Position numbers and translations under genes: made by a program. A stretch of 37,822 nt of DNA, from positions 89,170 through 126,991 of the forward strand of contig CACJUH010000004.1 in NCBI GenBank assembly GCA_902596545.1, given 5' to 3'. Source of the DNA: an uncultured Candidatus Actinomarina sp. GTDB lineage: Bacteria > Actinomycetota > Acidimicrobiia > Actinomarinales > Actinomarinaceae. This document shows, piece after piece, positions 9,835-33,796 of the stretch. The notes under the pieces are model-generated. The model did no database searches. It had not been told where the DNA came from and worked only from the letters and a program-made list of their open reading frames with translations. The stretch's first letter is position 1. Each line of letters begins with the position of its first letter.

Positions 9835-10455
9835 ATGATTAAAAGACTATTTGATATAGCAATTATTGTGATTTTTATACCTTTCTTTTTGCCAATAATT
9901 CTATTGATTTCAATTTTTTCTATTGTTAATCAAGGAAAGCCAATATTTTTCGTACAAAATAGAGTTGGAAAAAATAATAAAATATTTAAACTCTATAAAT
10001 TTAGAACTATGGAAATAACTGCTGAGGAAGACTTTCATAGATCACACTATCTAGATTTAGCAAAAGGAAAAGAAATAAAACCCTCAAACTCTCCACTAGA
10101 ACCTATAAGAATAGAAAACGATGACAGAATTACTAAATATGGTGCTTTTCTCAGAAAAACTTCACTTGATGAACTTCCGAATATATTAAATGTATTAATT
10201 GGAAATATGTCAATTGTTGGTCCAAGGCCGTTAGTTAATTATGAATCTGAACTTTATGGAGAATACAACAACAAACGTTGTTCAGTACCTCCGGGAATAA
10301 CCGGACTTGCTCAAGTTCAGGGTAGGTTAGATTTAAGTTTACAAGAAAGGCTCTTTTGGGATTTGCAATATATTGACAATTATTCTTTTTTCGAGGATAT
10401 AAAAATTATTTACAAAACTATTGCCTCTGTTATTTCAAGAAAAGGTGCGAACTAG
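9835..10455 (+). CDS. Undecaprenyl-phosphate sugar phosphotransferase (PglC/WbaP catalytic domain, monotopic PGT)
   Basis: At 206 aa this is the size of the small monotopic phosphoglycosyl transferases (PglC type), without the WbaP N-terminal extension. It starts KRLFDI and has one long hydrophobic re-entrant segment interrupted by Pro (residues 8-30). GKPIFFVQNRVG and FKLYKFRTM follow, then the catalytic Asp-Glu pair in KTSLDELPN (112-113) and SIVGPRPL (126-133). It transfers a sugar-1-phosphate from a UDP-sugar to undecaprenyl phosphate and so starts a repeat unit. It is a lone plus-strand gene between two leftward units and ends with a 4-bp overlap with the convergent GT. A second initiator of unrelated fold (WecA type) lies at 28170-29201. 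Confidence 0.92.
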   Translation: MIKRLFDIAIIVIFIPFFLPIILLISIFSIVNQGKPIFFVQNRVGKNNKIFKLYKFRTMEITAEEDFHRSHYLDLAKGKEIKPSNSPLEPIRIENDDRITKYGAFLRKTSLDELPNILNVLIGNMSIVGPRPLVNYESELYGEYNNKRCSVPPGITGLAQVQGRLDLSLQERLFWDLQYIDNYSFFEDIKIIYKTIASVISRKGAN

Positions 10456-11615
10456 AGCAAGTTTAAATATTGTTGAGAAACTGTATTTAAATTGGCGTAC
10501 TTTAAATTAACATCCTCTATATTTTGATAAATTTCATCTAAATTTTTCAAATTATTGAGTGCACTATCTATATCTGGATTCTCAGGATCGATGTTGATTC
10601 CAACATTGTACTTTTCAATGAATCTAGCTAAGCCTGATAATGGATTTGAGTATCCAATAAGTATCTTATTCATCTTAAGATAGTCAAAAGTTTTTCCGGG
10701 AAATCCTTCAACAGTCAAAGAGGATGATAATGATACTAAAGCAAAAGTTGAATTCTTAGTGTGTTTGAGTATTTCAGATCTATCAGTATAAGGATTTACA
10801 TTAATATTTTCTGACTCCATCTTTTTAATATCTTCATAACGGCTACCTGATCCATAAATTTTTAATTTATATTGATCTGAAGAATTATTTAAATTTTTAA
10901 TAAATGATTCTATGTTCTGTGGAATACCAAGATTGCCAGTATAAATGATTTCTTTATTATAGTTTTCTGGTCTTGGACTTTCTTCTGAACTAGAAAAATG
11001 ATAAATTACTTTAATTTTATTTTCTTGAATTCCTCTTGAATTAATTAAATATTCTTTTAACTCATCTGAATTAACAACAATATCATCAATAATTTTTAAA
11101 GCATAATTATCTAATTTTTTAAATAACCTAATTATTAATTTTGAGTTGATTTCGGATAATTTTGATGCGATTTCAGGATACAATTCCCATACTGAATAAA
11201 TTGTTTTCTTCTTTAATAATTTTTTTGAAATTATTGCTACTAAATTCATCGTAGGCGGATAACTAAAAATATATAAAACATCAAAAGTATTTCTATGTTT
11301 AATAAGGTATCTTATAGATCGATAATGAAATGAAATCCACTGAAAAATTCTTTTTTGTTGATTGAATGATCTTTGTGATGAGTAAATGTGATTTATTTTT
11401 ACATTTTTATAACTAGATGAATAAAGTTTTTTTTCTTTTATTTGTTTTAATTCATTATTAAAAACACTTTCATCAAAATTATATTGAGGAGTAGATGCAA
11501 GAATTTCTATATGTTGACCATTTTCAGAAAATTTATTAGCTATATCAGCAACTAGTTTTCCAGTTGATACATTGTCTGGAGGTATAGTCAATGAATGAAA
11601 TAATACTCTAGTCAT
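10452..11615 (-). CDS. Glycosyltransferase, GT4 (WbuB-like)
   Basis: A 387 aa GT-B glycosyltransferase. The N-terminus (LFHSLTIPPDNVSTGKLVAD) resembles WbuB-type enzymes, the middle domain begins at EIIYTGNLG, and the donor site is VEGFPGKTFDYLKMNKI. WbuB-type GTs in O-antigen loci commonly follow fnlA-fnlB-fnlC and transfer L-FucNAc. Here the gene follows a WecB-like epimerase, an RmlD-like reductase and a cupin, coupled to the epimerase by a 4-bp ATGA overlap. The inferred role is to transfer the L-amino sugar made by that cassette. The start is the ATG at 11615. Confidence 0.8.
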   Translation of the reverse strand: MTRVLFHSLTIPPDNVSTGKLVADIANKFSENGQHIEILASTPQYNFDESVFNNELKQIKEKKLYSSSYKNVKINHIYSSQRSFNQQKRIFQWISFHYRSIRYLIKHRNTFDVLYIFSYPPTMNLVAIISKKLLKKKTIYSVWELYPEIASKLSEINSKLIIRLFKKLDNYALKIIDDIVVNSDELKEYLINSRGIQENKIKVIYHFSSSEESPRPENYNKEIIYTGNLGIPQNIESFIKNLNNSSDQYKLKIYGSGSRYEDIKKMESENINVNPYTDRSEILKHTKNSTFALVSLSSSLTVEGFPGKTFDYLKMNKILIGYSNPLSGLARFIEKYNVGINIDPENPDIDSALNNLKNLDEIYQNIEDVNLKYANLNTVSQQYLNLL

Positions 11616-12760
11616 CCTTTAAATGAATTAGATGTATCAAATTGATAATCAGAAGGCTTGTGTTTTTTAAAATTGTCATCTTTACTCAATTGCTTAAGAT
11701 CTTCAACTATGATTTCTGATGAATTACCATCTCCGAATGGATTATTCCAATTGGTACCTATCAATTTAGTAACTTGTTCTATTGGAGAGTTATAGTCCTG
11801 CGTAGGGTCAAATTTTATTGAGGCATTAACATCATAAACTTCAGGCCTTTCAGTAGAAAATCTCATTTGAATCGATGGAATCCCTATGATGCAAGCTTCC
11901 TCCACAACTGTTCCTGAATCGGTAGCAACGTATTCTGAATTTTTTAAAAGATACATAAACTCTAAATATCCTATAGGATCAATGATCTTTACATTATTAC
12001 TTAGATTTACATTTGATTTTCTCAATATTTCTTGTGTCTTGTAACCCATTGGAAAAATTACATTTACGTCTTCAATTTCATTAAATAAGTTAATAATGTT
12101 TTCAAAACTTTTTTTATCTAGGATATTCTCTCTCCTATGACATGTAGCCAAAACAAATTTCTCATTAGACAAATTAAGAATATCTTCGGATAGATAATCT
12201 TGACCAGAATCAAAGTACTTTAAATTGTCATTGATTATATCCACAATAGGATTCCCTGTTACCTTTATAATGTTTTCACTTATACCTTCATTAAGACCTT
12301 GAGATTTGTAATTTTCTAAGTAAGCGTAAATCCTATCAGATAAATGATCTATTACTGTTCTATATTTTTCTTCAGGCATCCTCCAGTCATAAGATCGCAT
12401 ACATCCTTCAATATGAACTATTGGAATATTATGCTGAGCAGCTGCAATTGATCCCATAACCGTATTTGTATCTCCAAGAAATACTGCAGCTTTATATTTA
12501 TGGTCATTAAAGTGATTAAACAAATTCTCAATTGTTGAAGAAACAATATCTGCATCACTTCCTTTATTAATTTCAAATTCAAAATCAGGTTTAGGCACAT
12601 TAAGTTGTTTGAAAAATGTGTCTTTCATATTTTCCGAATAATGTTGGCCAGACCAAATAAAATCAAATTCAATATCACTTTGACTTTTTAATAATTTTAG
12701 TATTTTACTTGCCCTAATTACGTCAGGCCTTATACCCAAAATGATTGCTAAATCTTTCAT
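11612..12760 (-). CDS. UDP-N-acetylhexosamine 2-epimerase family (FnlC/WbvD-like)
   Basis: A 382 aa WecB homologue with the full catalytic set: GDTNTVMGS (Asp), HIEGCMRS (Glu), MPEEKYR (Glu), ATCHRREN (His) and ATDSGTVVEE at the donor site. It differs clearly from the 455-1546 paralogue (for example HIEGCMRS against HVEAGLRS), which suggests another substrate. It overlaps the RmlD-like reductase upstream by 4 bp (ATGA) and a WbuB-like GT downstream by 4 bp. In the FucNAc and RhaNAc/QuiNAc pathways this family carries out the final C2 epimerisation of a UDP-6-deoxy-HexNAc. The pathway assignment is inference from context; the family is firm. Confidence 0.85.
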   Translation of the reverse strand: MKDLAIILGIRPDVIRASKILKLLKSQSDIEFDFIWSGQHYSENMKDTFFKQLNVPKPDFEFEINKGSDADIVSSTIENLFNHFNDHKYKAAVFLGDTNTVMGSIAAAQHNIPIVHIEGCMRSYDWRMPEEKYRTVIDHLSDRIYAYLENYKSQGLNEGISENIIKVTGNPIVDIINDNLKYFDSGQDYLSEDILNLSNEKFVLATCHRRENILDKKSFENIINLFNEIEDVNVIFPMGYKTQEILRKSNVNLSNNVKIIDPIGYLEFMYLLKNSEYVATDSGTVVEEACIIGIPSIQMRFSTERPEVYDVNASIKFDPTQDYNSPIEQVTKLIGTNWNNPFGDGNSSEIIVEDLKQLSKDDNFKKHKPSDYQFDTSNSFKG

Positions 12761-13677
12761 TGTTTCATTATTTTATTTGTAATTTGAGAATTTGCTAGTT
12801 CTTCAATGTTTTCTTCTACAGTTGGAATTGAAGAATATCCAGCACATTTCCATAATTTTTCATTTACTTGCTCATTATTGGTTAAAAGAGTTCTATCAAT
12901 AATTTCTTCAGCATCGATATGTTTAATACCTATGTCTTTATTGAAATGTTTCTTAAATTCCTCTAATAGATTCGCTTTTGTTATTGTGTTTTTTGGAATT
13001 AAATGTTGTGTTTTAAAATTAAATTCATTGCTTAAGATAAATCCTTCTACAACTTTTGCAAAATTTAAAGTAGTAACTCCATTCCATAAATGGTTTTTAT
13101 ACCCAGAAATTTCTTGTTGAGTATTATTAAGAAACCAGTTCATAAGGGAAAACCCTTTACTTTGCTCAGGTCCAATAATGCTTGATCTTATCAAAGATTT
13201 ATTTGTTCCCTCGATTTCACCAACTATTTTTGATTTTCCATATAAGTCTGTTGCATCCATAAATGATGTTTCAGTATAAGAACCATCATTACCAGAAAAA
13301 ACACAGTCTGTACCAATCTGAATATATTTAATTTGGTTTTCAAAAGCAAGATTTTGGAGATCAATTGGAAAATATGAGTTTGTTAATATAGTTTCTTGAA
13401 TTGAAACTGGATTATTCTCATCTATTTTTGGTTTAATGACTCCAATACAGTTAACAATAAAATCAATTTTATTATTTACAATTTTTTTAAGATTATCGTA
13501 ATAATCGTCAGATAATTGAAAATTAGAATATTTTTTTTCAAAATTTTCTTCAATAAAAGAATTTTTGCTCCTAGAAGTTACAAAAACATTGAGTTCATTA
13601 TTTGACTTTAAATATAAGGAAACCATTTTTCCAAGCATCCCATTAGCGCCAAGAACTAATATGTTGTTATCACTCAT
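12757..13677 (-). CDS. RmlD-like NAD(P)H-dependent sugar reductase (SDR)
   Basis: I place the start at the ATG at 13677 (306 aa, MSDNNILVLGANGMLGKMV), because the Rossmann fold begins there and it gives an 8-bp overlap with the upstream cupin. The longer in-frame version starting at 13755 adds 26 residues with no fold. Features are GANGMLG near residue 10, VNCIGVIKP, GTDCVFSG (compare STDYVFDG in RmlD), YGKSK and RSSIIGPE. The family reduces 4-keto-6-deoxy sugars, as RmlD, WbvR and the N-terminal half of CapF/FnlB do. With the separate cupin upstream and the WecB-like epimerase downstream it looks like a split version of CapF/FnlB. The exact product is unknown. Confidence 0.82.
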   Translation of the reverse strand: MSDNNILVLGANGMLGKMVSLYLKSNNELNVFVTSRSKNSFIEENFEKKYSNFQLSDDYYDNLKKIVNNKIDFIVNCIGVIKPKIDENNPVSIQETILTNSYFPIDLQNLAFENQIKYIQIGTDCVFSGNDGSYTETSFMDATDLYGKSKIVGEIEGTNKSLIRSSIIGPEQSKGFSLMNWFLNNTQQEISGYKNHLWNGVTTLNFAKVVEGFILSNEFNFKTQHLIPKNTITKANLLEEFKKHFNKDIGIKHIDAEEIIDRTLLTNNEQVNEKLWKCAGYSSIPTVEENIEELANSQITNKIMKQ

Positions 13678-14128
13678 AAATTTCCGGTGAATATTTTTCC
13701 CATGGGTCCCAATAATTTGATTTAAATCTAATATCGTCTTTTGCAGACTCCTCAACAGACAAGTTTGAAAAATACATTATTTCAGAATCAGAAACAACAT
13801 TCATTGCACCATTTGCATACCCTGGAGGAACATATATTAATCCTGAATCATTATCAAATTCATATTCTAAAATTTCAATATTTTTTGAGGGTTTTTCCCA
13901 ATTGTCAATCTCAATAAGACAAACTATGAATACACCTTTTATGACTTTAATAAGCTTTGATTCAACTTTATGTCCATGCCATGCTCGTACTGTACCCCTT
14001 TTTGGATTTCTTACTATATAAAATCTTTTAAATTCATCTAGTGCAAGATCGTTGTAATACTCTAATGAGCCTCTATGATCTTCAGATACACCTTTCTCAA
14101 AAATAATAGGTTTTTCTGATGTGCTCAT
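13670..14128 (-). CDS. RmlC-like cupin, sugar-nucleotide epimerase
   Basis: A 152 aa single-domain cupin. It has DHRGSLEYY near residue 17 (the D-x-RG motif of RmlC), FKRFYIVRNPKRGTVRAWHGH (His-x-His), a KVIKG turn and IYVPPGYANG. It is related to dTDP-4-dehydrorhamnose 3,5-epimerases and to the C-terminal cupin of CapF, but is shorter than canonical RmlC (about 180 aa). It would epimerise a 4-keto sugar nucleotide before reduction by the RmlD-like enzyme next to it. The ATG overlaps the previous stop as TAATG (1 bp), and its own end overlaps the next start by 8 bp. Confidence 0.8.
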   Translation of the reverse strand: MSTSEKPIIFEKGVSEDHRGSLEYYNDLALDEFKRFYIVRNPKRGTVRAWHGHKVESKLIKVIKGVFIVCLIEIDNWEKPSKNIEILEYEFDNDSGLIYVPPGYANGAMNVVSDSEIMYFSNLSVEESAKDDIRFKSNYWDPWEKYSPEIYE

Positions 14129-15060
14129 TAACTAATTCCATATTCTTCTAGGAAATTTTGATTTGAATATCTCTTATGATTAACATTCTTTATTCTATTG
14201 TTAGCAATTAAGTCATGTATTTCATTAATACCTGTTTTTAAATCTATTAACGCTTCGAATCCTGTTTCATTAAATAACTTTGCACTGCTAACTTGATAAT
14301 TTCTAGAATCTTGGAATTTCATCGGAGTTGTTTCAATTTTTGCGGAAGGAATTTTTTCGACAATTGCCTCTGCAATGTCTATAATTTTATAATTTTTATG
14401 ATGCAAGTTATATACTCCCTTAATATCTTTTTCTAATACGTTTTCTATAGCATTAGCAACATCATTAACATGCAACAGGGGTCTCCATTGTTCTCCCCCA
14501 AATACAGTTAATTTTCCATCAGTTAGAGCTTTAGTGACTAATATATTAACTACCAGATCTAACCTTATTCTTGAAAATTCATCACTAATTCCAAAAAGAG
14601 TACCTAGTCTAAATATGACTGAATTTGTATCTTTAAGGTAATCTTCAGCCTGAATTTTTGATGATGCATATTCTGATAGTGGATTTATAGATGATTCTTC
14701 ATCTAATAATCCATCTTGAGCACCGTAAACAGAACATGTTGACAAGAAGATAATTCTCTTTTTAAAATTTTGTGCAAGAAACTTTACAGACTCTGAATTA
14801 ATTTCGAATGTTAAATCTGGATTTATAGAACATGCACCATCTCCTACAAGTGCTGCTAACCAAATAACAGCATCATTTTGATCAAATAAAGGAAGTAATT
14901 TTTCATGTTCTCTTATGTCTCCATAAATAAAATTTACATCTTTTCTATAAGATTCTTCGTAAATTAAAGAGTCATAAACTGTTACATTATGTTTATTTTT
15001 GAGATTATCAACTATTCCACCGCCAACATAACCAGCGCCACCGACTATTAAAATATTCAC
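14128..15060 (-). CDS. NAD-dependent epimerase/dehydratase family protein (extended SDR)
   Basis: A 310 aa extended SDR. GGAGYVGGG (residues 7-15) binds NAD, STCSVYG supplies the Ser/Thr, and YASSK is the Tyr-x3-Lys pair. FRLGTLFGIS and RPLLHVNDVANAI fit the GalE/epimerase superfamily. The active-site loop lacks the Asp-Glu pair of 4,6-dehydratases, so an epimerase or reductase role is more likely. It starts at GTG (15060), 20 bp after the preceding GT gene, and has a candidate internal promoter. It leads the cupin/RmlD-like/WecB-like/GT group and probably works on the same sugar. The substrate is not identifiable. Confidence 0.78.
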   Translation of the reverse strand: MNILIVGGAGYVGGGIVDNLKNKHNVTVYDSLIYEESYRKDVNFIYGDIREHEKLLPLFDQNDAVIWLAALVGDGACSINPDLTFEINSESVKFLAQNFKKRIIFLSTCSVYGAQDGLLDEESSINPLSEYASSKIQAEDYLKDTNSVIFRLGTLFGISDEFSRIRLDLVVNILVTKALTDGKLTVFGGEQWRPLLHVNDVANAIENVLEKDIKGVYNLHHKNYKIIDIAEAIVEKIPSAKIETTPMKFQDSRNYQVSSAKLFNETGFEALIDLKTGINEIHDLIANNRIKNVNHKRYSNQNFLEEYGIS

Positions 15061-15080: not shown

Positions 15081-16169
15081 CTAAACATTATTCGTATTAA
15101 TATAAAATTTTTCAAAAGATTTTACTGTATTTTCAATAGAGAAATTTTGTACTATAAAATCTTTTTGTCTAATTTGAACTTGGTCTAGCTTTTCCTGTTC
15201 GTTATCAAAATAACCTCTCAATATATTTGCAATTTCTTGAGTATTTTCTCTTTCTACTAAACAGTTTTCTGTATTAATTACAAATTCATTAAGTGGGCTA
15301 ATATTTGAACAAACGACTGCTACATTATTTTCAATAGCTTCTAAAACAACTAGTCCAAATCCTTCAGATTCAGATAAAAAAAGAAATAAATCTAATTGGC
15401 TAAAAAAATCATCTATGTTTGAATAATGGTCAAATATTTCAACATAGTCCTCAAGTTGATATTTTTGTATCATGGCCTTGATATTTTCAACATAACCCTC
15501 ATCATCAGAACCCGCTAGTTTAAGTTCAAAATTAACATCTAAATTTTTTAAATAAAAGGCAGTTTCTAAGACTTTGTCCCATCCCTTCCATGGAAGGATT
15601 CTTGCTGCCATACCAATGGTGTTTTTGTGTTTATTCCTAGTGGGACGGTTATTAATTTTGACCCCGTAATGAATCGTACTTATAAGATCTTGTTTTATGC
15701 TTCTTTCGTCAACAAGCCAATTGTTTATTTTGTTTGAAATTGCAATCACTCCATTTGAATTGTTTAATATTTTTTTCCAAAAGATATTTGCTATTAGATA
15801 CTTAAATTTATTTTCACCCGCTCTAGTGCCATATTGGGCATGAACAGAAACTACATGCTTTATTCTTTTATTAAATAGCTTTAAAATTCCAATAATTAGA
15901 TCTGACTTTGGTAAATGTGAATGAATAAGATCATAATTATTGTTCTTTATAATTCTGTTTAGTAAAAAAATACTTTTAATTGAGCTTTGACTATAAATAT
16001 TTATATTGTTTAAGTTATTTAATATTGAATCGCCATTTTCATACATATCAAATGTAAACAATTCAATTTCAACATTATTTATTTCTTTAAATAATTCAGC
16101 TAACTGAACTTCAGCACCATCTTTTTTTAAAGTAGGAACAACATGCAATATTTTCATTTTGCTACTCAT
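15081..16169 (-). CDS. Glycosyltransferase, GT4
   Basis: A 362 aa GT-B enzyme. It starts MKILHVVPTLKKDGAEVQLAEL (a GT4 acceptor-domain start) and has HSHLPKSDLI, VHYGVK-like IHYGVKIN at the linker, GMAARILPWKGWD, and SESEGFGLVVLEAIE with the E-x7-E donor motif. All catalytic features are intact. The ATG at 16169 overlaps the polymerase gene by 8 bp; a second in-frame ATG at 16157 (residue 5) would leave a 4-bp gap and matches the canonical start better. The enzyme probably adds a residue to the glycan polymerised by the neighbouring Wzy-like protein. Specificity is unknown. Confidence 0.85.
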   Translation of the reverse strand: MSSKMKILHVVPTLKKDGAEVQLAELFKEINNVEIELFTFDMYENGDSILNNLNNINIYSQSSIKSIFLLNRIIKNNNYDLIHSHLPKSDLIIGILKLFNKRIKHVVSVHAQYGTRAGENKFKYLIANIFWKKILNNSNGVIAISNKINNWLVDERSIKQDLISTIHYGVKINNRPTRNKHKNTIGMAARILPWKGWDKVLETAFYLKNLDVNFELKLAGSDDEGYVENIKAMIQKYQLEDYVEIFDHYSNIDDFFSQLDLFLFLSESEGFGLVVLEAIENNVAVVCSNISPLNEFVINTENCLVERENTQEIANILRGYFDNEQEKLDQVQIRQKDFIVQNFSIENTVKSFEKFYINTNNV

Positions 16170-17343
16170 TAGTTATTTCTGATTTGAGTTTAAAAAATAC
16201 AAGAAAAAATAAAACTGAAATGGAGTGATTTTGAATAAAATCACCAGTAAAAGAGAGGGCGACAAAACCCCCAAGAAATAAATAATTTGATTTTATAATA
16301 TTTTCCTTAAATAATTTCATAAATGCTATGAATTCCCTAAGAAAAATATTTAGGAACAATATGAGACCAAAAAAACCATAGCTTAAGACAATAAATAAAA
16401 AAGAATTATGTGGTCCCGTAGGACGTAATTCATCTGAAAATTTACCAATTGATTTCAATTCATTTCTAACTATGCCAAAATTATCGAATCCATATCCAAA
16501 AATATTTTCTTGAGCAGATCGTGATGAAATGTCTTGAAAACTAGCCTGTTGCATCTGTACTCTGTCCTCTATTCCTTCTGTTTCAGATTCTGAAGTGAAT
16601 CTATCAATTAATCCAAAATTAGAAGTTATTAATAAAGTAACTATGATTGTTAAAATTCTTAAATAGTCTTTATCTAAAAATACATATATAAATAACAGCA
16701 ATACAAAAACAATAAGTGCAGCTCTACTAAATGTAAAAAAGCAACCTAATAAACTTATAAAAATAATGACGTCTTTTAAGCGACCTTTCAGATTAGGAAT
16801 GCAATATAACCCAAGGCATGCAATAATCGCACCGAATGCATTTGGACCTCCAGCTTGCAAACCATTAATCCTTCCTGCTGTAAATATCCAATTATTACTG
16901 TTAAATCCAATTTTCCAATAGTCGTAGGAATCAACCCCAAAATCTAATTTGAAGAAATAAGAAAATATGGAAAAAAGACTTAAGAATACTAATAACAAAA
17001 ATAAATATTTATCTAAAAATTGTGAATTCTTGACATTCAATATGGTAACTAAAAGTATCAAATAAAAAATATATCTTATTAAATCATTAAAAAGAAAATT
17101 TCCATTTATAAGATAGTTTTGAATAGATATATAAATAATAAATAACAAAATTGGAATAATTTCTTTTATAAAAAATTCTTTAATATTTTTTATAAAAATA
17201 TTAAATATAAATAATACAAAAAATGAAAGTACCGGAATGTCATCAAGTTGTATATTGTTAGAAATTTCAATATGAGGAGTGACTGGTATTAAAAATACAA
17301 GAGCTAATTGGGCTTCTATTAAATAATTTTTAGATTTAACCAT
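16162..17343 (-). CDS. O-antigen polymerase/ligase family membrane protein (Wzy_C type)
   Basis: A 393 aa protein with roughly ten membrane segments. GRINGLQAGGPNAFGAIIA and FTFSRAALIVFVLLL are conserved stretches of the O-antigen ligase/polymerase family. The loop after FGYGFDNFGIVRNEL ends in GPHNSFLFIVLSYGFFGLI, the conserved His-Asn motif. The loop is of ordinary length, unlike that of the related 801-residue protein at 31017. Its ATG lies inside the end of the GT2 gene (25-bp overlap). It polymerises lipid-linked repeat units or ligates glycan; polymerase is favoured because it is embedded in a GT operon. Confidence 0.82.
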   Translation of the reverse strand: MVKSKNYLIEAQLALVFLIPVTPHIEISNNIQLDDIPVLSFFVLFIFNIFIKNIKEFFIKEIIPILLFIIYISIQNYLINGNFLFNDLIRYIFYLILLVTILNVKNSQFLDKYLFLLLVFLSLFSIFSYFFKLDFGVDSYDYWKIGFNSNNWIFTAGRINGLQAGGPNAFGAIIACLGLYCIPNLKGRLKDVIIFISLLGCFFTFSRAALIVFVLLLFIYVFLDKDYLRILTIIVTLLITSNFGLIDRFTSESETEGIEDRVQMQQASFQDISSRSAQENIFGYGFDNFGIVRNELKSIGKFSDELRPTGPHNSFLFIVLSYGFFGLILFLNIFLREFIAFMKLFKENIIKSNYLFLGGFVALSFTGDFIQNHSISVLFFLVFFKLKSEITNE

Positions 17344-18047
17344 CTTTTTATTCCATTATTAATTAAAAAGATTAAAGCTTCAACAATTATTTTATTTGAC
17401 ATTTTTGACTTACCTACTCTTCTCTCATTAAAAATTATTGGAACTTCTTTAATTGACAAATTTTTTTCAACACATCTTAAAGTCATTTCTATCTGAAAAG
17501 AATATCCATCAGAATCGGTTTCTTGATACTTGATTTCGTTTAAACTTTTTTTCGAATAACACCTAAAGCCACTTGTCATGTCTTTGACTTTAGATCTTAA
17601 GAATATTCTAGAAGTAGTATTCGCTGTACTTGATAACAATTTTCTTTTAAAGTCCCAGCCTTGACTTCCCCCACCTTCTATATATCTACTACCTATGATT
17701 AAATCAAAATTTGATGAAACTTCTATAATTTTTTTTAAATCGACAAAACTATGTGAAAAGTCTGCATCCATTTCAATAAAAAATTCATACCCCTTTTCAA
17801 TACCCCAACTAAATCCATCTCTATATGCTGATCCTAAACCTTGTTTTGAAGGTCGTTTTAATAAATTAAGTTGAATATTTGATTTTGATATCTCACTTAT
17901 TAATTCCCCTGTACCATCAGGTGAATTGTCATCAACAAATAATACAGAAACATTAAATTTTGAGATTTCAGAAACAAAATTTGGAATGTTATCAATTTCG
18001 TTATATGTTGGAATTATTATTAAGTGCGAGTTAAAGTTTGAGGTCAA
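17319..18047 (-). CDS. Polyprenol-phosphate mannose synthase-like GT2
   Basis: A 242 aa protein, the size of soluble DPM1/Ppm1 domains without membrane anchors. It has IIPTYNEIDNIP, VDDNSPDGTG (38-47), the metal-binding DAD in EMDADFSH (93-99), GSRYIEGG, DMTSGFRCYS and FNERRVGKSKMS, all hallmarks of polyprenol-monophosphate mannosyltransferases. It would charge polyprenyl phosphate with mannose (or another hexose) for use outside the membrane. It lies 5 bp downstream of the NamH-like gene. The start is TTG at 18047; no ATG precedes the conserved PTYNE motif. Confidence 0.87.
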   Translation of the reverse strand: MTSNFNSHLIIIPTYNEIDNIPNFVSEISKFNVSVLFVDDNSPDGTGELISEISKSNIQLNLLKRPSKQGLGSAYRDGFSWGIEKGYEFFIEMDADFSHSFVDLKKIIEVSSNFDLIIGSRYIEGGGSQGWDFKRKLLSSTANTTSRIFLRSKVKDMTSGFRCYSKKSLNEIKYQETDSDGYSFQIEMTLRCVEKNLSIKEVPIIFNERRVGKSKMSNKIIVEALIFLINNGIKRWLNLKII

Positions 18048-18052: not shown

Positions 18053-19627
18053 TTAGGATCCATCTCCATCAAGATCAACTGCATTAATTGTTGCATCAAG
18101 ACCAACTGCTTTACCTTCATTTTCTAAATCAAATGACCATCTGTGCTTTGGACAAATAAGGTATCTTTCGTCTTCAATTTGATGTGTTGTTAGATCACTA
18201 CCCTGATGAGGGCAAAACTTATCAATAGAGTAAAGCACTCCACCTGCTTCAACGGTTATACGCTCACGCTGGTTTTGAAGTCGCATTAAATTTTCAATAA
18301 ATTCTGGAACATCTTCTTTTTCCATTGTTAAAAAACCATTGATTGCTACTTGGTATATATCTGGTGTTCTTTTGAGTTTATGTCTAAATGAAAGCATGAA
18401 ATCTTCCCAGTTGAGATACCCGTCCAATAACCTCCCAATATCACCAGCAGAACTACTAATTTCATAAGTACTTGATGAGTTGTTTTGGTTTTTATCCATT
18501 ATTTTTATTTCTTTTTTATCAAAATAAACAAATATGGATGAATCAGGAATCTCAACAATGGAAAATTGCATAACAACATCCATATTTTGTTCTATATTAA
18601 AATTTTCAAGTTTAGATTTAAGTTCTTTAAGTAATCTTTGCTGAATTTGAATTGGATTATAAACTAATTTTTGTTCATTTCTATTTTCAAAAATATATGA
18701 ATAATTTTTCGCATATTTTTTTATATTTTCTTTAGCAAATTGTTCTTCAACGTTATCAAAAGGATGATTAATTTCGATATTATTATCATTATCAAAATTA
18801 AATGTCGAACCTGGTAAAGGTACTTCAATATTTAACTCTGGCATATTCTCAACTAAATAATTTTTAAATTTGAAAGGAGAAGAAAAAATATTAACTTCTT
18901 GGAAATTGATATTGATTAGCTCAGGATCTAAAAATACTGGAGGGCCTGCAGCAGGTATGTACAAATTAGGCTCAAACTTACTTATTAAATTACTAACAGA
19001 ATTAAATTTGCCAAAAACTTTTGATTCAGATATTTCTTTGTACTTTTTCTCTGGATAATCATAGCAAACTGGATGAAAAACAGCACCAGAAAATTGGCAT
19101 GTAAAAGCATCAAATTTTTTAAAAATGTCTTTTAACTCATCTACTCTGTCATAAACTTTACAATCATTTAGATTTAAAAAAGTGAAGTCTTTCTCTTTAT
19201 CAATTAAACCTAGTGCTGAGTCTCTTACTATTTCCTGATCATCAAGAAATAATCTTATTTCCATATTGCCAACGTTCAAGACCTCTGAATCAACAGGAGT
19301 AGTTACAGATTTTGGATTTAATTTATTTAAGATGTATGCAACGTGATCTCTTCTAAATTTTGGAGTAATAAAATTAATTTTTGAAAGATTTAAAGTTTTT
19401 AAAAATGGAACGTCAAAGTGATCTTTATGTTCATGACTAATGTAAATATATACTTCTTTTTCGGTTGATTCAATTTCATTTCGAATTTCATCTCCTAAAT
19501 CATGATTGGATGGAAATTGATACCATGAAGAATCGAAAGCTCCTTCCTTTGACATCCAAGGATCCATTAATAACATTTCATTTTTTGTTTCATACATGAA
19601 ACCTGCATGACCAAGAAATTTAAGCAT
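18053..19627 (-). CDS. namH: NamH-like N-acetyl-sugar hydroxylase: metallo-beta-lactamase fold plus Rieske [2Fe-2S] domain
   Basis: I start this at the ATG at 19627 (524 aa), which has TATTAT exactly 7 nt upstream; an in-frame extension to 19690 adds 21 residues but no domain. The N-terminal metallo-beta-lactamase fold has the metal motif HEHKDH (65-70). The C-terminal Rieske centre is CPH (472-474) and CPKH (492-495). Between them, YIPAAGP and LNWEDFMLSFRHKLKRTPDIY resemble conserved stretches of CMP-Neu5Ac hydroxylase (CMAH). Mycobacterial NamH, which converts UDP-MurNAc to UDP-MurNGc, is a CMAH relative of similar length. In an actinobacterium without visible sialic-acid genes, NamH is the best guess. 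It heads a polysaccharide unit, so a nucleotide-sugar substrate other than UDP-MurNAc remains possible. Confidence 0.7.
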   Translation of the reverse strand: MLKFLGHAGFMYETKNEMLLMDPWMSKEGAFDSSWYQFPSNHDLGDEIRNEIESTEKEVYIYISHEHKDHFDVPFLKTLNLSKINFITPKFRRDHVAYILNKLNPKSVTTPVDSEVLNVGNMEIRLFLDDQEIVRDSALGLIDKEKDFTFLNLNDCKVYDRVDELKDIFKKFDAFTCQFSGAVFHPVCYDYPEKKYKEISESKVFGKFNSVSNLISKFEPNLYIPAAGPPVFLDPELININFQEVNIFSSPFKFKNYLVENMPELNIEVPLPGSTFNFDNDNNIEINHPFDNVEEQFAKENIKKYAKNYSYIFENRNEQKLVYNPIQIQQRLLKELKSKLENFNIEQNMDVVMQFSIVEIPDSSIFVYFDKKEIKIMDKNQNNSSSTYEISSSAGDIGRLLDGYLNWEDFMLSFRHKLKRTPDIYQVAINGFLTMEKEDVPEFIENLMRLQNQRERITVEAGGVLYSIDKFCPHQGSDLTTHQIEDERYLICPKHRWSFDLENEGKAVGLDATINAVDLDGDGS

Positions 19628-19634
19628 ATAGAAT

Positions 19635-19640
19635 ATAATA
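19635..19640 (-). promoter_or_regulatory. -10 box TATTAT, 7 nt before the namH start (leaderless promoter)
   Basis: On the minus strand TATTAT is followed by 7 nt and the ATG at 19627. This repeats the arrangement at 1591 and 9835 and supports the shorter start of the NamH-like gene. No Shine-Dalgarno sequence is present. Confidence 0.55.
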
Positions 19641-19680
19641 ATAGAACTAAGAAATATCAAATAATAAACTTCAAAAGAGT

Positions 19681-19686
19681 TAGAAT
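19681..19686 (+). promoter_or_regulatory. -10 box TAGAAT, 6 nt before a GTG start (leaderless promoter)
   Basis: TAGAAT ends 6 nt before the GTG at 19693. The 65-bp divergent gap 19628-19692 therefore carries one back-to-back promoter for each direction. No -35 element is obvious. Confidence 0.45.
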
Positions 19687-19692
19687 TCAACT

Positions 19693-20685
19693 GTGGAAAA
19701 AATCGTAGTTACTGGTTCATGTGGTTTTATTGGTTACAATTTTATTAAATCAAATTCTTCAAATTTCAAAATTATTGGGATTGATTCATTAAACAATGCT
19801 TATGACAAGAAATTAAAAGACTTAAGACTCTTATCTTTAAATGATGAACCAAACTTTACATTTAAACATCTTGATCTATCAAACGAAATTGCATTAGATA
19901 AAGAATCAGAAATTTTTGAGAATGTATCTACAGTATTACACTTAGGGGCTAGAGCAGGTGTAAGACAAAGTTTTTTAGATCCAAAAAGTTATATTTTAGA
20001 CAACACAGCTGCAACAGCTAACCTGGCTTTAAATGTTAAGAAATATAAGATCAAAAAATTTATTATTGCTTCTACTTCTTCTATTTATGGAGATACTGGT
20101 GTAAATTATGCGGAAGAAAACAAAGATGAGTTAGAAAATCCTCCATCCATATATGCTGCAACAAAATCTTTTGGAGAAGTGCTTGCAAGAAATATTTTAG
20201 AAGATACTAATACGACAATCCAAATTCCAAGATTTTTTACAGTTTATGGACCTTTTGGTAGGCCTGATATGTCAATACTTAGATTTATACATTGGATTTC
20301 TACAAATCAAGAAGTAATTATTTATGGGGATGGTGAACAAAAAAGATCATTTACATTTATTTCAGATATAATTTCAGGATTAAACAAACTATTTAGCCAT
20401 GATGATTCTGGAATTTTTAACTTTGGATCAAATGAAACATGGTCTTTAAATCAAGTAATAAATCTTATAGAAAAAAAACTTAACAAAAAAGCCATCATTG
20501 TAAATAGGGAAAGAGCTATGAAAGATGTTGATATTGTTTTACCTAGTCTAAAATTATCAAAGTCATTATTAAATTGGGAACCTACTACAAGGATTGAAGA
20601 TGGTATCGATGCAACTGTAGAGTGGTATAAAAATTATAAAGATGAATTAAAGGAAATTAAGTTTAAGTATGAATACGAAAAATAA
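19693..20685 (+). CDS. UDP-glucuronate 4-epimerase-like SDR
   Basis: A 330 aa extended SDR starting at GTG. It has TGSCGFIGYNF for NAD binding (residues 7-17), then IDSLNNAYDKKLKDLRLLSL, a form of the DNLNdYYdvkLKeaRLa stretch typical of UDP-GlcA 4-epimerases. STSSIYG, YAATK (Tyr-x3-Lys) and PRFFTVYGPFGRPDM follow. It would make UDP-GalA from UDP-GlcA, whose source could be Ugd at 25844-27052. It heads a five-gene plus-strand unit and overlaps the next SDR gene by 17 bp. The substrate is inferred from family resemblance; a GalE-like or other epimerase is the alternative. Confidence 0.78.
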   Translation: MEKIVVTGSCGFIGYNFIKSNSSNFKIIGIDSLNNAYDKKLKDLRLLSLNDEPNFTFKHLDLSNEIALDKESEIFENVSTVLHLGARAGVRQSFLDPKSYILDNTAATANLALNVKKYKIKKFIIASTSSIYGDTGVNYAEENKDELENPPSIYAATKSFGEVLARNILEDTNTTIQIPRFFTVYGPFGRPDMSILRFIHWISTNQEVIIYGDGEQKRSFTFISDIISGLNKLFSHDDSGIFNFGSNETWSLNQVINLIEKKLNKKAIIVNRERAMKDVDIVLPSLKLSKSLLNWEPTTRIEDGIDATVEWYKNYKDELKEIKFKYEYEK

Positions 20686-21655
20686 TCTAAACAAAGTAAT
20701 CATAACAGGAGGAGCTGGCTTCATAGGTTCTAATTTGGTAAAAAAATTATTAGAAAATGGCACAGAAAAAATATTAATTATTGATGATTTATCTACTGGC
20801 AAATTGAAAAATTTAGAAGATTTTTCAAATAACAAAAGTATTGAAATTATAAAAAAACGAGTAGAAGACATTGATAATTTAAATACTATGTTTGAAAAAT
20901 TTGATTTTTGTTTTCACTTAGCAGCTGGGGTTGGAGTGCAATACATCATGGATAATGTTAGTAAGGCTCTTTTAACAAACATTGAAGGTACCCATATTGT
21001 TATTGAAGCTTGTAAAGAAAACAACATACCTTTATTAATCACTTCTACATCAGAAGTTTATGGAGTTTCTCAAGATGAAGTTTGGACCGAGGAAACTAAG
21101 AGTTTAATAGGCCCTCCTACGAAACTTAGATGGTCATATGCTGCTTCAAAACTAATTGATGAATTTTTGGCATTATCTGAATTTAATGATAAAAAATTGA
21201 ATCCAATAATAGTAAGACTATTTAATATTATAGGTCCAAACCAGCTATCAGAATTTGGAATGGTAGTTCCAAAATTTATTGAAGCTGCATTAAAAAATGA
21301 AACTATAGTTATACATGGTACTGGTGATCAAACTCGTTCATTTACATGGGTAGGAGATGTAGTAAATTATTTTTATCTACTAGCAAAGAATGAACTTTAC
21401 GGTGAAATTTATAATATTGGACAAACTGAAGAAATTTCTATAAAAGACTTGGCATCTTTAATTATTGAAAAATGTAATTCAAGTTCCAAAATTATTTTTA
21501 AAGATCATGAAGAAGTTTATGGAAATAAATTCGAAGATCCAATGAGAAGAACACCATCAATTGAAAAAATTGTTAATGCAACAAATTATGAACCATCAAT
21601 GACAATTCAACAAATGATTGAAGAGATAATTAAATATAAAAAAATAAACCTTTGA
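20669..21655 (+). CDS. NAD-dependent epimerase/decarboxylase-like SDR
   Basis: A 328 aa extended SDR. TGGAGFIGSNLVKKL binds NAD, STSEVYG has the Thr-Ser-Glu loop seen in UDP-GlcA decarboxylases and 4,6-dehydratase-like members, and YAASK is the Tyr-x3-Lys pair. RLFNIIGPNQ, GTGDQTRSFTWVGDVV and RRTPSIEKI follow. The GDQTRSF motif and the Glu favour a UXS/ArnA-type or GalE-type enzyme. It differs from the clearer Uxs at 24924. It lies between an SDR (17-bp overlap) and a GT (4-bp overlap, TTGA) and probably supplies a sugar to the three GTs that follow. I cannot fix its reaction. Confidence 0.75.
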   Translation: MNTKNNLNKVIITGGAGFIGSNLVKKLLENGTEKILIIDDLSTGKLKNLEDFSNNKSIEIIKKRVEDIDNLNTMFEKFDFCFHLAAGVGVQYIMDNVSKALLTNIEGTHIVIEACKENNIPLLITSTSEVYGVSQDEVWTEETKSLIGPPTKLRWSYAASKLIDEFLALSEFNDKKLNPIIVRLFNIIGPNQLSEFGMVVPKFIEAALKNETIVIHGTGDQTRSFTWVGDVVNYFYLLAKNELYGEIYNIGQTEEISIKDLASLIIEKCNSSSKIIFKDHEEVYGNKFEDPMRRTPSIEKIVNATNYEPSMTIQQMIEEIIKYKKINL

Positions 21656-27085: not shown

Positions 27086-28177
27086 ATGGATATAGTGATT
27101 TATTATATTGCACATTGGGATTGGATCTTAAAAAATTCAAGAGCCGAAATAGCTAAAAAAGTTGATTTTGATATAACTGGAATCTCTCCAATCATTGATT
27201 ATAAAGATGAACTTGAAGATGCATTTACAAGCAATATTAATTGGGAATACAAAAGACAAAAACTTATTCATTCAATGGGTATTTTTAGGCTAAGAAGATT
27301 AATTAAAAATTTTAAAGAAAAAGATATCCTTCACATCTTTACATTAAAATCTTTAATTATTTATTTGATATCCTCTATTTTCACTAACAAAAAACAAACA
27401 GTCATCGCATCAGTAACTGGACTTGGGTATCTTTTTGCTAATACAAAATTTGCTAATTTTCTTAAATTAGTTTTAAGGTATTTTATAAGCTCTAGGATAA
27501 ATTCACTCGTAGACGTAATAATCTTTCAAAATAAAGACAATCAAACTAAATTTGTTGAATATACAAAATTTAAAAATAGAGTTGAAATAATAGAAGGTAG
27601 TGGTTTACAAACTAAATTAATCACTAAAAAAGAATCTTTTAACAAAAAACTAAAGATAATTTTTGTAGGAAGACTTTTAAAAGAGAAAGGAATATTTGAA
27701 TATATTGATATCATCAATCATTTATCAAATCATGAGGATTTAGAATTTTATATTGCTGGTAGTAGAGATCCGGGTAATAGAAGTAGCTTAACTGAAAAAG
27801 ATTTCAAAAGAATACAAAATATTCCTGATTTACAATACTTGGGGGAAATAGATATAAATAGCGAGCTATATAAATATGATATTTTGGTACTTCCTTCTTA
27901 TCACGAAGGTTTTTCAAGAATATTACTTGAAGCAGCTTATACAGGTCTATATTGTATCGTAAACGATATTCCTGGAACTAGAAATATAATTAGCACAACA
28001 AATTGTGGAAAACTTATAAAAGAAAATAATATTGAGCAGTATGTCAATGAGCTTACAAATATTTGCAAAAAATTACCTGAGCTTAATCATTCAAGTATAA
28101 GAGAAATAATTACTGAAAATTACTCAGTTGAAGCAATTGCAATGAGAATGACTAACCTTTATAAAGAATATGTTTGA
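27086..28177 (+). CDS. Glycosyltransferase, GT4
   Basis: A 363 aa GT-B enzyme of the PglA/WbpH-like type. The N-terminal domain has ILHIFTLKSLI and ASVTGLGYLF. The C-terminal domain has KIIFVGRLLKEKGIFEYID, FYIAGSRDPGN, and LPSYHEGFSRILLEAAYTG with the E-x7-E donor motif, then NDIPGTRNII. It overlaps the WecA-type gene by 8 bp, so it is a good candidate for the enzyme adding the second sugar to the undecaprenyl-PP-sugar made by that protein. The exact sugar is unknown. Confidence 0.87.
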   Translation: MDIVIYYIAHWDWILKNSRAEIAKKVDFDITGISPIIDYKDELEDAFTSNINWEYKRQKLIHSMGIFRLRRLIKNFKEKDILHIFTLKSLIIYLISSIFTNKKQTVIASVTGLGYLFANTKFANFLKLVLRYFISSRINSLVDVIIFQNKDNQTKFVEYTKFKNRVEIIEGSGLQTKLITKKESFNKKLKIIFVGRLLKEKGIFEYIDIINHLSNHEDLEFYIAGSRDPGNRSSLTEKDFKRIQNIPDLQYLGEIDINSELYKYDILVLPSYHEGFSRILLEAAYTGLYCIVNDIPGTRNIISTTNCGKLIKENNIEQYVNELTNICKKLPELNHSSIREIITENYSVEAIAMRMTNLYKEYV

Positions 28178-29201
28178 AAATATACAATTATCACTTTTAA
28201 ATGCTTGTTTACTCTCGTTTTTAATTTCTTTTTTAACTTACTACTTTTTAGTAAAAAAAAGACCCGATTTTAAAATAAAAAATCAAAGTCAAAAAAGATT
28301 AAATGCCTTAAACATACCTCCATTAGGTGGTGTCGGAATGGCAATTAGTTTTTTTCTATCAGTTAGGTTGCTTGGTGAAGCTGAAGAAATATTCATATAT
28401 ATATCTTTTTTTGCCTTAGCAATTGCTTTTCTTGGAGTGTTAGATGATTTGTATAACTTAAACTGGAAAATTAAATTCTTTTTCCAGCTTTTGTTTGTTG
28501 GGATTCCAGTAATTTATCTTAATATTTTTTTAAATGTAGAAAATATTCTTAATTTCAAATTAGATAATAACCTGAATATAACTTTCACAATTTTTTGGAT
28601 TTTACTGATAATTAATTCAATTAATTTTACAGACAACATGGATGGTTTTGCTTCAATTAATACTTCTTTTATATGTTTGGCTTTAGGTATAATTTCTTTT
28701 TTATCCAATCAGAACTACCTAGCTGATATTAGTTTGGTTTTACTTTTTTCTATTTCTGGTTTTTTTATTCTAAACTTTCCACCTGCAAAAATTTATATGG
28801 GAGATTCAGGAAGTTTGTTTATTGGGTTTGTATTAGGTTTTATAAGTATTCTCTTTGACTGGAGTCCTGTAAATCAAAATATTTTATACAATTCTTTTAC
28901 ACCGGTTTTATTATTTTTCAGTATCCCTTTATTAGATTTTGCTACTGTGTTTACATTTAGAATTAAAAATAAAATCTCGCCTACAACTGGTGGTACAGAC
29001 CATATTTCACATAGATTATTAAAAGCTGGTAATACTGTAAAAGAAGTTCTAGGAATCTTTGTTCTAATAAATATCCTAATTTTTAGTCTTTTATCTTTAT
29101 CAATAACATATAGCCAGTTTTCTATAATCTTCTTAGTTCTATATGTGGCGTTAATTTTTTACTTATTTTTTAAATTTGCAAATATGGATATACTAGATTA
29201 G
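28170..29201 (+). CDS. Polyprenyl-phosphate N-acetylhexosamine-1-phosphate transferase (WecA/TagO family)
   Basis: A 343 aa polytopic membrane protein with about ten hydrophobic segments. The polyprenyl-P HexNAc-1-P transferase motifs are all present: NIPPLGGVGMA (48-58), GVLDDLYNLNWK (89-100), NFTDNMDGFAS (152-162), MGDSGSLFIG (210-219) and GGTDHISHRL (274-283). It transfers GlcNAc-1-P (or a related HexNAc-1-P) from UDP to undecaprenyl phosphate. It follows and overlaps a GT, and is separate in fold and position from the monotopic initiator at 9835. MraY is less likely because of the Asp-His-x-x-His-Arg ending typical of WecA. The end overlaps the convergent nucleotidyltransferase by 9 bp. 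Confidence 0.9.
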   Translation: MFENIQLSLLNACLLSFLISFLTYYFLVKKRPDFKIKNQSQKRLNALNIPPLGGVGMAISFFLSVRLLGEAEEIFIYISFFALAIAFLGVLDDLYNLNWKIKFFFQLLFVGIPVIYLNIFLNVENILNFKLDNNLNITFTIFWILLIINSINFTDNMDGFASINTSFICLALGIISFLSNQNYLADISLVLLFSISGFFILNFPPAKIYMGDSGSLFIGFVLGFISILFDWSPVNQNILYNSFTPVLLFFSIPLLDFATVFTFRIKNKISPTTGGTDHISHRLLKAGNTVKEVLGIFVLINILIFSLLSLSITYSQFSIIFLVLYVALIFYLFFKFANMDILD

Positions 29202-29900
29202 TTTCTTTAATTCTTCAATTCTATCTTCTGTTCCTGCATCAATCCACCAATCATTTAGTGTTTTAAATGAAACATTTTTAGATTTTATATAAAGATTATT
29301 TAAATCAGTAATTTCCAACTCTCCCCTTGCAGAAAATTCTAATCTATCAATTAATTCAAAACAATTATAACTGTACAAGTATAATCCAAGTACAGCCAAA
29401 TTTGATTTAGGTTTCTCTGGCTTTTCCTCAATAATTTTAATTTCTTCATTAACTATATTTGCTACACCAAATTCACTAGGATTTGATACTGGCTTTAAAA
29501 ATAAAACGGTATCAAAATTATCATATAAATTAATATTTAAAATTGGATTTTCGCCAAAAAAATTGTCACCTAAAATAAATAAAATTTTAGATTTTTTTTC
29601 TACACAATTTTTAGCTTGCTTTAATGCATGTGCAATACCTAAAGGCTTATCTTGTATAGTGTATTTAATGTCTTTATTTGGATGACTATTTTTTAAATCA
29701 TTTCTTATTAATTCATCAAATGCAGGGTTAGTAATTACGACAAATTTTTTTATACCCCAATTTGATAATTGTTGAATCTGAAGAGAGATCATAGATTGAT
29801 TATTTATATCAATTAATACTTTTGTGGAAGTGTTACCTTTGTAATTTTTAAGTCTTGTGCCTAAACCTGCTGCAGCGATAACCGCGGAAATTTTTTCCAT
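29193..29900 (-). CDS. Sugar-1-phosphate nucleotidyltransferase (RmlA-like)
   Basis: A 235 aa single-domain nucleotidyltransferase. AVIAAAGLGTRLKNYKGNTS forms the P-loop-like signature, KVLIDI replaces the usual KP-LPI segment, and LGDNFFGENP holds the metal-binding Asp. EEKPEKPKSNLAVLGLYLYS, ARGELEITDLN and WWIDAGTEDRIEE match RmlA-type enzymes. It is shorter than RmlA (about 290 aa), so the C-terminal extension is missing. It would activate a sugar-1-phosphate to an NDP-sugar. It stands alone on the minus strand; no rmlB or other dTDP-sugar gene lies nearby, so its product is open. A -10-like TAAAAT is 7 nt before the ATG. Confidence 0.8.
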   Translation of the reverse strand: MEKISAVIAAAGLGTRLKNYKGNTSTKVLIDINNQSMISLQIQQLSNWGIKKFVVITNPAFDELIRNDLKNSHPNKDIKYTIQDKPLGIAHALKQAKNCVEKKSKILFILGDNFFGENPILNINLYDNFDTVLFLKPVSNPSEFGVANIVNEEIKIIEEKPEKPKSNLAVLGLYLYSYNCFELIDRLEFSARGELEITDLNNLYIKSKNVSFKTLNDWWIDAGTEDRIEELKKLI

Positions 29901-29907
29901 TATTTTT

Positions 29908-29913
29908 ATTTTA
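29908..29913 (-). promoter_or_regulatory. -10 box TAAAAT, 7 nt before the RmlA-like gene (leaderless promoter)
   Basis: TAAAAT matches the -10 consensus at five of six positions and is followed by 7 nt and the ATG at 29900. No Shine-Dalgarno sequence is present. Confidence 0.5.
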
Positions 29914-29928
29914 AGTACTTTATTTGAT

Positions 29929-29934
29929 TATAGT
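29929..29934 (+). promoter_or_regulatory. -10-like box TATAGT upstream of the LCP gene
   Basis: TATAGT lies 12 nt before the ATG at 29947 and 6 nt before an in-frame TTG at 29941. It could produce a very short leader, or a leaderless TTG-started transcript. Confidence 0.35.
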
Positions 29935-29946
29935 TGTGATTTGGCA

Positions 29947-31053
29947 ATGAAAATAAATAAACAACTAGCACTATTAATAACTCTGGTCTTTATATCTTTG
30001 GGTGCGTATTTATTAATTCCAAATTTTGAAAGAGAAGAATTTAATACAGATATTGTTGAAGAAATTTCAACTGGAACAATTTCAACTACAACAACAATTA
30101 TTGAAGAAAATGAAAACCTTCCTGAAGAAAATTTAGAAGAATCATTAGACGAAGTATTCAAACCATCCATATACGATACTTTATTGATTAATAATAAAAC
30201 AGAAAGAATAGATGAAATATTTGAAACTTATCTAATTATTGGTAGTGATGAAAGAAGTAAAGATTCTTCTGCTAGCAGAGGATATGTAACAGGCAGTCGT
30301 GCAGACGTTATAATGTTGGTATTAATCGATAAAAATTCATTTCCCACTTTGATATCGATTCCTAGAGATTTATTGATTAAAGATCCATGTACTCAAAATA
30401 TTCAACGAATAAATTCGTCTTATGTGAGAAACGAGTGTGGAAGTAATGCAGAAAACTTATCAGCTGTATTGCTAAATATTACAGGCTTGAAAGTAAATCA
30501 TTTTGCTAAATTTAGCTTTGAAGGTTTTGAAGAAATTATCGATAGCTTTGGAGGTATAGAAATTTGTGTAAATCAAACTCAAAGAGAAGGCTATTCCTTT
30601 GAAATCCAAAAAGGTTGTAACATCCTAAATGGTGAAATAGCTTTAAATTGGGTTGTATCTAGAAATACGGAAGTTCTTGATGGAGAAAAAAGAATTGATG
30701 AAGATGGTAACGATATTTCAAGATGGAAACCTATGCAGGGTGTTAGTGATTTAACAAGAGTAAAAAAACAACAAGAAGTAATTCTTTCCCTTATGAATAA
30801 TTTAAATGATTTTGATTCATTAAATACTTTTTTTAAATTTGTAAATGCTCTAGAAGATGCGTTTACAATCGATGAGAATATTTCATTGCTTCAGGCGTCT
30901 GAGCTTATATGGTCGTTCAGAGATTTTGATTTTGAAAAAATTCAAAAATTAACAGTACCAACATATAACTACACAACAGACGCTAAGGCACAAGTTTTAA
31001 TTTTAGATGAAAATTTTTACGATTTCTTAGTGTCTAAAGATTTGGTAGATTGA
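29947..31053 (+). CDS. LytR-CpsA-Psr (LCP) family glycopolymer transferase
   Basis: From the ATG at 29947 the product is 368 aa. It has a short cytoplasmic N-terminus, one membrane helix (residues about 6-24) and a Thr/Glu-rich linker (about 40-70). The LCP domain has LIIGSDERS, GSRADVIMLVLID (116-128, pyrophosphate-binding Arg and Asp), ISIPRDL (136-142), FGGIEICV and DLTRVKKQQ (268-276). LCP enzymes move glycopolymers from undecaprenyl-PP to peptidoglycan on the outer face of the membrane. An in-frame extension to 29857 lies over the divergent nucleotidyltransferase start and is not credible. It is the likely attachment step for one island glycan. Its last 37 bp overlap the convergent ligase-like gene. 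Confidence 0.9.
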   Translation: MKINKQLALLITLVFISLGAYLLIPNFEREEFNTDIVEEISTGTISTTTTIIEENENLPEENLEESLDEVFKPSIYDTLLINNKTERIDEIFETYLIIGSDERSKDSSASRGYVTGSRADVIMLVLIDKNSFPTLISIPRDLLIKDPCTQNIQRINSSYVRNECGSNAENLSAVLLNITGLKVNHFAKFSFEGFEEIIDSFGGIEICVNQTQREGYSFEIQKGCNILNGEIALNWVVSRNTEVLDGEKRIDEDGNDISRWKPMQGVSDLTRVKKQQEVILSLMNNLNDFDSLNTFFKFVNALEDAFTIDENISLLQASELIWSFRDFDFEKIQKLTVPTYNYTTDAKAQVLILDENFYDFLVSKDLVD

Positions 31054-33422: not shown

Positions 33423-33423
33423 G

Positions 33424-33792: not shown

Positions 33793-33796
33793 TATT

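Follow-up and report, generated by a model that had tools for sequence, protein, structure and literature searches.

The gene at positions 18053–19627 of the window, the 37,822-nucleotide stretch of DNA analysed here, raises the question of which substrate would be served by a protein that joins an MBL domain to a Rieske centre and is encoded among polysaccharide genes. The gene, designated W, is intact, lies on the minus strand and encodes 524 amino acids. The open frame spans 18053..19690 (−), and the ATG at 19627 agrees with the end coordinate in the initial annotation, which had placed the gene correctly. Its features are as follows.

18053..19627, minus strand: putative MBL-Rieske hydroxylase gene (W), 524 aa, ATG at 19627
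18878..19627, minus strand: MBL domain (residues about 1–250) with a predicted diiron site (Pfam PF13483, FrsH/CmlA profile match, Foldseek)
19418..19435, minus strand: HEHKDH metal motif, residues 65–70 (H65, H67, D69, H70), conserved in W and NamH
19220..19222 and 19163..19165, minus strand: further conserved acids D136 and D155, respectively
18353..18409, minus strand: segment WEDFMLSFRHKLKRTPDIY, residues 407–425, in the W-type, CMAH-like form (likeness to CMAH a lead only); the NamH version has diverged
18098..18259, minus strand: Rieske [2Fe-2S] domain (PF00355), with C472-P-H474 at 18206–18214 and C492-P-K-H495 at 18143–18154

The MBL domain is followed by a middle region and a C-terminal Rieske centre. 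Pfam models Lactamase_B_3 (E 9e-7) and Rieske (E 6e-9, residues 457–510) match the N- and C-terminus, respectively, both over the cutoff, and no NCBIfam model covers the protein. The Rieske ligands follow the pattern C-P-H-x17-C-P-K-H (CPH, residues 472–474; CPKH, residues 492–495). The columns of HEHKDH, CPH, CPKH and WEDFMLSFRHKLKRTPDIY are conserved in relatives from several phyla and, therefore, the match is not due to chance. The Pfam hits and these conserved columns confirm the domain composition noticed originally, namely an MBL domain and a C-terminal Rieske centre, and the segment noted at residues 407–425 is present as described.

The AF2 model of the protein (pLDDT 92, pTM 0.90) was compared with the PDB using Foldseek, and the diiron MBL-fold hydroxylases FrsH and CmlA appeared within the first five matches, with FrsH in first place. 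A profile search with W retrieved FrsH (E 6e-14), CmlA (E 4e-7) and, for the C-terminus, Rieske ferredoxins; a single-protein search of the PDB returned no close relative. The model of mycobacterial NamH, taken as a positive control, gave CmlA and FrsH as its first five fold matches. Since fold and profile both match CmlA/FrsH best and the NamH model gives the same top matches, the modelled W protein looks like an oxygenase and not like a UlaG-type hydrolase. The placement with UlaG-like hydrolases that the initial annotation had named as a refutation was thus not found by profile or structure. UPF0173 and UlaG-like folds (3x2z, 3bv6) are also among the high Foldseek matches; however, FrsH and CmlA rank first in both searches and all four Rieske ligands are retained in the W clade as well as in the NamH clade, and a metal hydrolase of the UlaG/UPF0173 type with an incidental or non-functional Rieske domain is very improbable. 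The conservation of the ligands also led to the rejection of an incidental Rieske domain as such. The alpha subunit of a ring-hydroxylating Rieske oxygenase was rejected as well: the Rieske domain is C-terminal, and no Pfam match to a mononuclear-iron domain follows it.

At least 95% conservation in both the W and NamH clades is observed for 45 columns, including HxHxDH, D136, D155 and the four Rieske ligands. In the alignment with CmlA, the counterpart of D155 is the aspartate near position 403, and D136 may occupy the place of Glu377, where the alignment is ambiguous. The last CmlA histidine, the seventh metal ligand, has no conserved counterpart in the aligned W and NamH sequences and, because of this, the metal site of W may differ from that of CmlA. 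CmlA and FrsH are diiron MBL-fold beta-hydroxylases of antibiotic pathways that are not known to carry a fused Rieske domain and that act on aminoacyl substrates. They are the best fold and profile matches of the W MBL domain and share HxHxDH and the D155 equivalent with it, whereas the last CmlA histidine is not found in W. We infer that W holds a diiron oxygenase centre, to which its fused Rieske cluster supplies the reducing electrons.

The initial annotation had named mycobacterial NamH as the known bacterial relative. The NamH proteins of Rhodococcus and Tsukamurella were verified by synteny, having serS, glf, acyltransferase and HAD neighbours as in mycobacterial loci, an arrangement which we take to correspond to the Rv3818 region. 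W aligns with these proteins collinearly over the full length at 24–26% identity, and shares with NamH (Rv3818-type, Mycobacteriales) the order of MBL and C-terminal Rieske domains, HxHxDH, D136, D155, the Rieske ligands and the top fold matches. NamH has been described as UlaG plus a C-terminal Rieske domain (PMC10050696). Membership of the NamH/CMAH-type group of MBL-Rieske hydroxylases, as first claimed for the protein, is supported by sequence, by collinearity with NamH and by fold. On the other hand, W differs from NamH in the low identity, the separate clade, the 407–425 segment, its presence in surface-polysaccharide loci and its position outside the glf–serS neighbourhood. The arrangement glf ... 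namH ... serS was not found at the window locus on comparison with loci L067 and L095; it also fails in members of the NamH clade outside Mycobacteriaceae.

A genome scan revealed 15 nearer relatives with 33–40% identity, beyond which identity falls abruptly to about 25% for NamH-type proteins. The nearer relatives belong to Bacteroidota, Chlorobiota, Chloroflexota, Bacillota, Myxococcota, Gammaproteobacteria and Acidimicrobiia. In the maximum-likelihood tree, clade W (Myxococcota, Legionella and other Gammaproteobacteria, Paenibacillus, Bacteroidota, Chlorobiota, Chloroflexota and Acidimicrobiia) is separated from all NamH-type proteins with a support of 100/99, in a tree with long branches and no fixed root. 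One Acidimicrobiia MAG (locus L034) carries both a W gene and a NamH with 50% identity to mycobacterial NamH, subject to the usual caveat of MAG contamination. Simple orthology to NamH was rejected on the basis of the 24–26% identity and the separate clade. Judged by sequence, W is a separate, widely scattered bacterial branch of NamH/CMAH-type MBL-Rieske hydroxylases and is not NamH. The tree of MBL-Rieske proteins, a check suggested in the initial annotation, set the protein apart from NamH itself.

The genes surrounding W in the window are listed below.

17319..18047, minus strand: GT2 glycosyltransferase, next gene in the predicted operon
16162..17343, minus strand: Wzy_C / O-antigen ligase-like protein
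15081..16169, minus strand: GT4 glycosyltransferase
12757..15060, minus strand: NDP-sugar SDR (14128–15060), RmlC/FdtA-like cupin (13670–14128) and RmlD-like SDR (12757–13755)
11612..12760, minus strand: WecB-type UDP-GlcNAc 2-epimerase (TIGR00236, 245.5 bits, cutoff 210)
10452..11615, minus strand: GT4 glycosyltransferase, last gene of the conserved minus-strand block
19693..21655, plus strand: two divergent NDP-sugar SDR genes, the second of which (20669–21655) is 38% identical to the SDR adjoining W in locus L156
25844..27115, minus strand: nucleotide-sugar (UDP-glucose type) dehydrogenase of the same cassette
28170..31053, plus strand: WecA-type glycosyl-1-P transferase (28170–29201) and LCP ligase (29857–31053)

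The minus-strand block runs in the order W, GT2, Wzy, GT4, SDR, cupin, RmlD-like SDR, WecB and GT4. Eight genes on the same strand follow W, each overlapping its neighbour or separated from it by a few bases (about 20 bp at most), and the position at the head of a polysaccharide operon, as first described, is borne out. The SDR, cupin and RmlD-like SDR possibly constitute a deoxy-amino-sugar module. Outside this block, the genes encode further SDRs, glycosyltransferases, the nucleotide-sugar dehydrogenase, WecA and LCP; the latter two suggest a wall-linked glycopolymer.

The window's genome comprises 1.10 Mb in 17 contigs. Among 42 Actinomarina-like genomes of the genus, W occurs in four, always in the same polysaccharide cassette. 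The gene order is identical in the three other W-bearing genomes wherever the stretch is covered, one contig starting inside W. W therefore belongs to one glycotype and not to the core genome. The window has a GC-content near 28% and is flanked by glyS, dnaG and tRNAs. The flexible island fGI1 of Candidatus Actinomarinales has been reported as an envelope-polysaccharide island with 28% GC and tRNAs as hot spots (PMC7771536). The window island is presumably fGI1, as the GC-content, the flanking glyS, dnaG and tRNAs and the island content agree. Genes for tRNA-Met and tRNA-Asn are located at the island edge (window 33423–33911), in agreement with the tRNA hot spots of fGI1 (PMC7771536). Elsewhere in the window, two proteins of the 400-aa class (2510–3751 and 6720–7931), with no Pfam match at E 0.01, flank a heparinase II/III-like gene. 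Another genome of the same genus, G017, contains an MBL-only relative with no Rieske domain near polysaccharide genes (L177:9750–11072).

The surroundings of W in other bacteria were also analysed. The neighbours of W in Legionella and other Gammaproteobacteria are WecB together with an NfrA/NfrB-like pair (L035, L153), a GalE-like gene plus PelF/PelG (L033, L154), an SDR alongside PelA/PelB homologs (L036, L156), or SDR plus dehydrogenase genes (L155, L157, L158). A PelB barrel is recognised among the W neighbours of this group. An SDR or WecB gene was found within 8 kb of W in 9 of 10 such loci compared to 0 of 20 control stretches (Fisher p 7e-7, a value that overstates the case, since the Legionella loci are related and represent about five distinct arrangements). 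The markers in this comparison were taken from the window only and the controls from three of the Legionella genomes; the test was confined to SDR and WecB, as the glycosyltransferase markers derived from the window are too insensitive for distant W loci. The nearest PDB relatives of the SDR beside W in three Legionella loci are UDP-glucuronate decarboxylases, and the link of this SDR to HexNAc is tentative. W lies inside or beside Pel genes (PelABDEFG) in several of these genomes; the window cassette, in contrast, is a cluster of the Wzy/LCP type. Of 117 Myxococcales genomes, 49 carry W; it belongs there to a conserved block whose sole recognisable glycan gene encodes a chitin-synthase-like GT2. 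The GC-rich myxobacterial loci were analysed with GC3-weighted gene calling, naive ORF calling having produced antisense artefacts. A gene for a protein with no Pfam match (L161:6646–7734 and homologs) accompanies W, adjacent to it or close by, in almost every myxococcal locus that was examined. The Pedobacter locus (L031) displays no clear glycan context. Taken together, these surroundings of W favour activated amino sugars destined for exopolysaccharides over muramic acid as the substrate.

Animal CMAH differs from W in architecture. CMAH carries an N-terminal Rieske domain, as the initial annotation correctly stated, whereas that of W is located at residues 457–510, and the CMAH order of Rieske followed by MBL is not found in W. 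The two proteins have in common the MBL domain and the Rieske domain and, as a lead only, since a provisional CMAH sequence was compared, may share a W(E/D)..R.PDIY block. Against this provisional sequence, and again as a lead only, the W profile scored 78 bits and matched all three blocks (Rieske, MBL and PDIY), though with their order permuted, and the NamH profile reached 55 bits and missed the third (PDIY) block. Genes for CMP-sialate metabolism were not recognised at the W locus. Neither the scanned window ORFs nor the genes adjoining W elsewhere included a recognisable NeuB-type gene, and a search of W-bearing genomes for NeuB gave no match in Pedobacter, L. santicrucis and L. gratiana and weak ones in Myxococcus and Citreicoccus. 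NeuB presence is a useful discriminator for these genomes and is not decisive for the window's own, where another contig, 4.3 kb long, carries a gene for a NeuB-family synthase (L175:2760–3626) together with SDR and HAD-like genes. As several W genomes have no NeuB match or a weak one, a CMP-nonulosonate is unlikely as the general substrate of W.

On balance, it is somewhat probable that W, a member of a clade separate from NamH, is a Rieske-fed diiron N-acetyl hydroxylase that acts on an NDP-N-acetylamino sugar destined for surface polysaccharide such as slime or capsule. Its MBL-fold domain would hold a diiron centre of the CmlA/FrsH kind and work as an O2-dependent hydroxylase, with electrons fed by the fused C-terminal Rieske cluster. 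On a nucleotide-activated amino sugar, the enzyme would hydroxylate the N-acetyl group and so yield an N-glycolyl group; NamH carries out this conversion on UDP-MurNAc, and CMAH on CMP-Neu5Ac. The candidate substrate is a UDP-HexNAc or a UDP-deoxyHexNAc made by the WecB/SDR genes of the cassette, and the N-glycolyl product would then enter an LCP-anchored surface polysaccharide.

Production of N-glycolyl muramic acid for peptidoglycan by a UDP-N-acetylmuramate hydroxylase with NamH function would accord with the shared domain order and catalytic residues, with the LCP and cell-wall genes near the window gene and with the universality of peptidoglycan, which supplies the substrate even in W genomes with no special sugars. 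We nevertheless regard this function as unlikely given the 24–26% identity in a separate clade, the MAG possessing both proteins, the restriction to one polysaccharide glycotype in 4 of 42 genomes and the Legionella genes, which track Pel and epimerase genes rather than mur genes. The initial annotation had left the choice between modified peptidoglycan and a new N-glycolyl sugar; the new sugar, in a surface polysaccharide, is the better option, and N-glycolyl muramic acid is disfavoured by the non-orthology to NamH, the coexistence with it, the single glycotype cassette and the exopolysaccharide contexts elsewhere. Even less likely is a bacterial CMAH, that is, a CMP-nonulosonate hydroxylase yielding Neu5Gc-like acids: the WEDF..PDIY segment, the higher score against the provisional CMAH sequence (a lead only) and the NeuB of the window's genome speak for it, but the NeuB results for the W loci and the other W genomes speak against it. 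An MBL-Rieske oxygenase of another kind is fairly unlikely; its target would be another position, a sugar bound to a lipid or a polymer, or a compound other than a sugar. Only two functions have been characterised in the family, some W loci have no clear glycan genes, and the nearest solved relatives, CmlA and FrsH, use aminoacyl substrates. Against this, the NDP-sugar contexts of W are recurrent, and both characterised relatives with a fused Rieske domain, NamH and CMAH, act on the N-acetyl groups of nucleotide sugars.

Returning to hydroxylation of an NDP-N-acetylamino sugar, a broader version is tentative and rather doubtful, namely that the clade consists of phylum-crossing UDP-N-acetylhexosamine hydroxylases that give rise to N-glycolyl-hexosamine exopolysaccharides, an undescribed modification, and lies nearer to the root of animal CMAH than NamH does. 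The products, as part of the same tentative claim, would be a Pel-type polymer in Legionella, LCP-linked glycans in Actinomarina-like bacteria and a matrix polymer in Myxococcaceae. In the literature searched, N-glycolyl sugars were those of mycobacterial-type peptidoglycan and animal sialic acids, and a bacterial exopolysaccharide containing N-glycolyl hexosamine did not appear there. If a second branch of the hydroxylases is indeed linked to exopolysaccharides, many bacteria would carry hydroxylated amino sugars in their matrix, which would bear on how phages recognise cells, how glycans are degraded and how the immune system senses them. The predicted N-glycolyl groups should be directly visible by mass (+16 Da) in organisms that can be cultured, Myxococcus among them. 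The findings on W also suggest that the diiron centre of NamH and CMAH is of the CmlA type and is supplied by their fused Rieske cluster, and clade W would offer a route to the origin of CMAH.

Single-protein searches of viral contigs and phages revealed no close relative of W, and a similar search of plasmids retrieved NamH-type or MBL-only relatives alone. Two IMG/VR viral contigs of 160–180 kb (L105:9995–11380 and L106:9995–11437) encode an MBL-Rieske protein with 27% identity that keeps the Rieske ligands. On a 13.7 kb viral contig (L107:6101–10825), a CMAH/NamH-like MBL gene, truncated at the end of the locus, closely follows two glycosyltransferase genes. The MBL-only relatives on haloarchaeal plasmids (L024:7995–9338) adjoin nucleotide-sugar genes.
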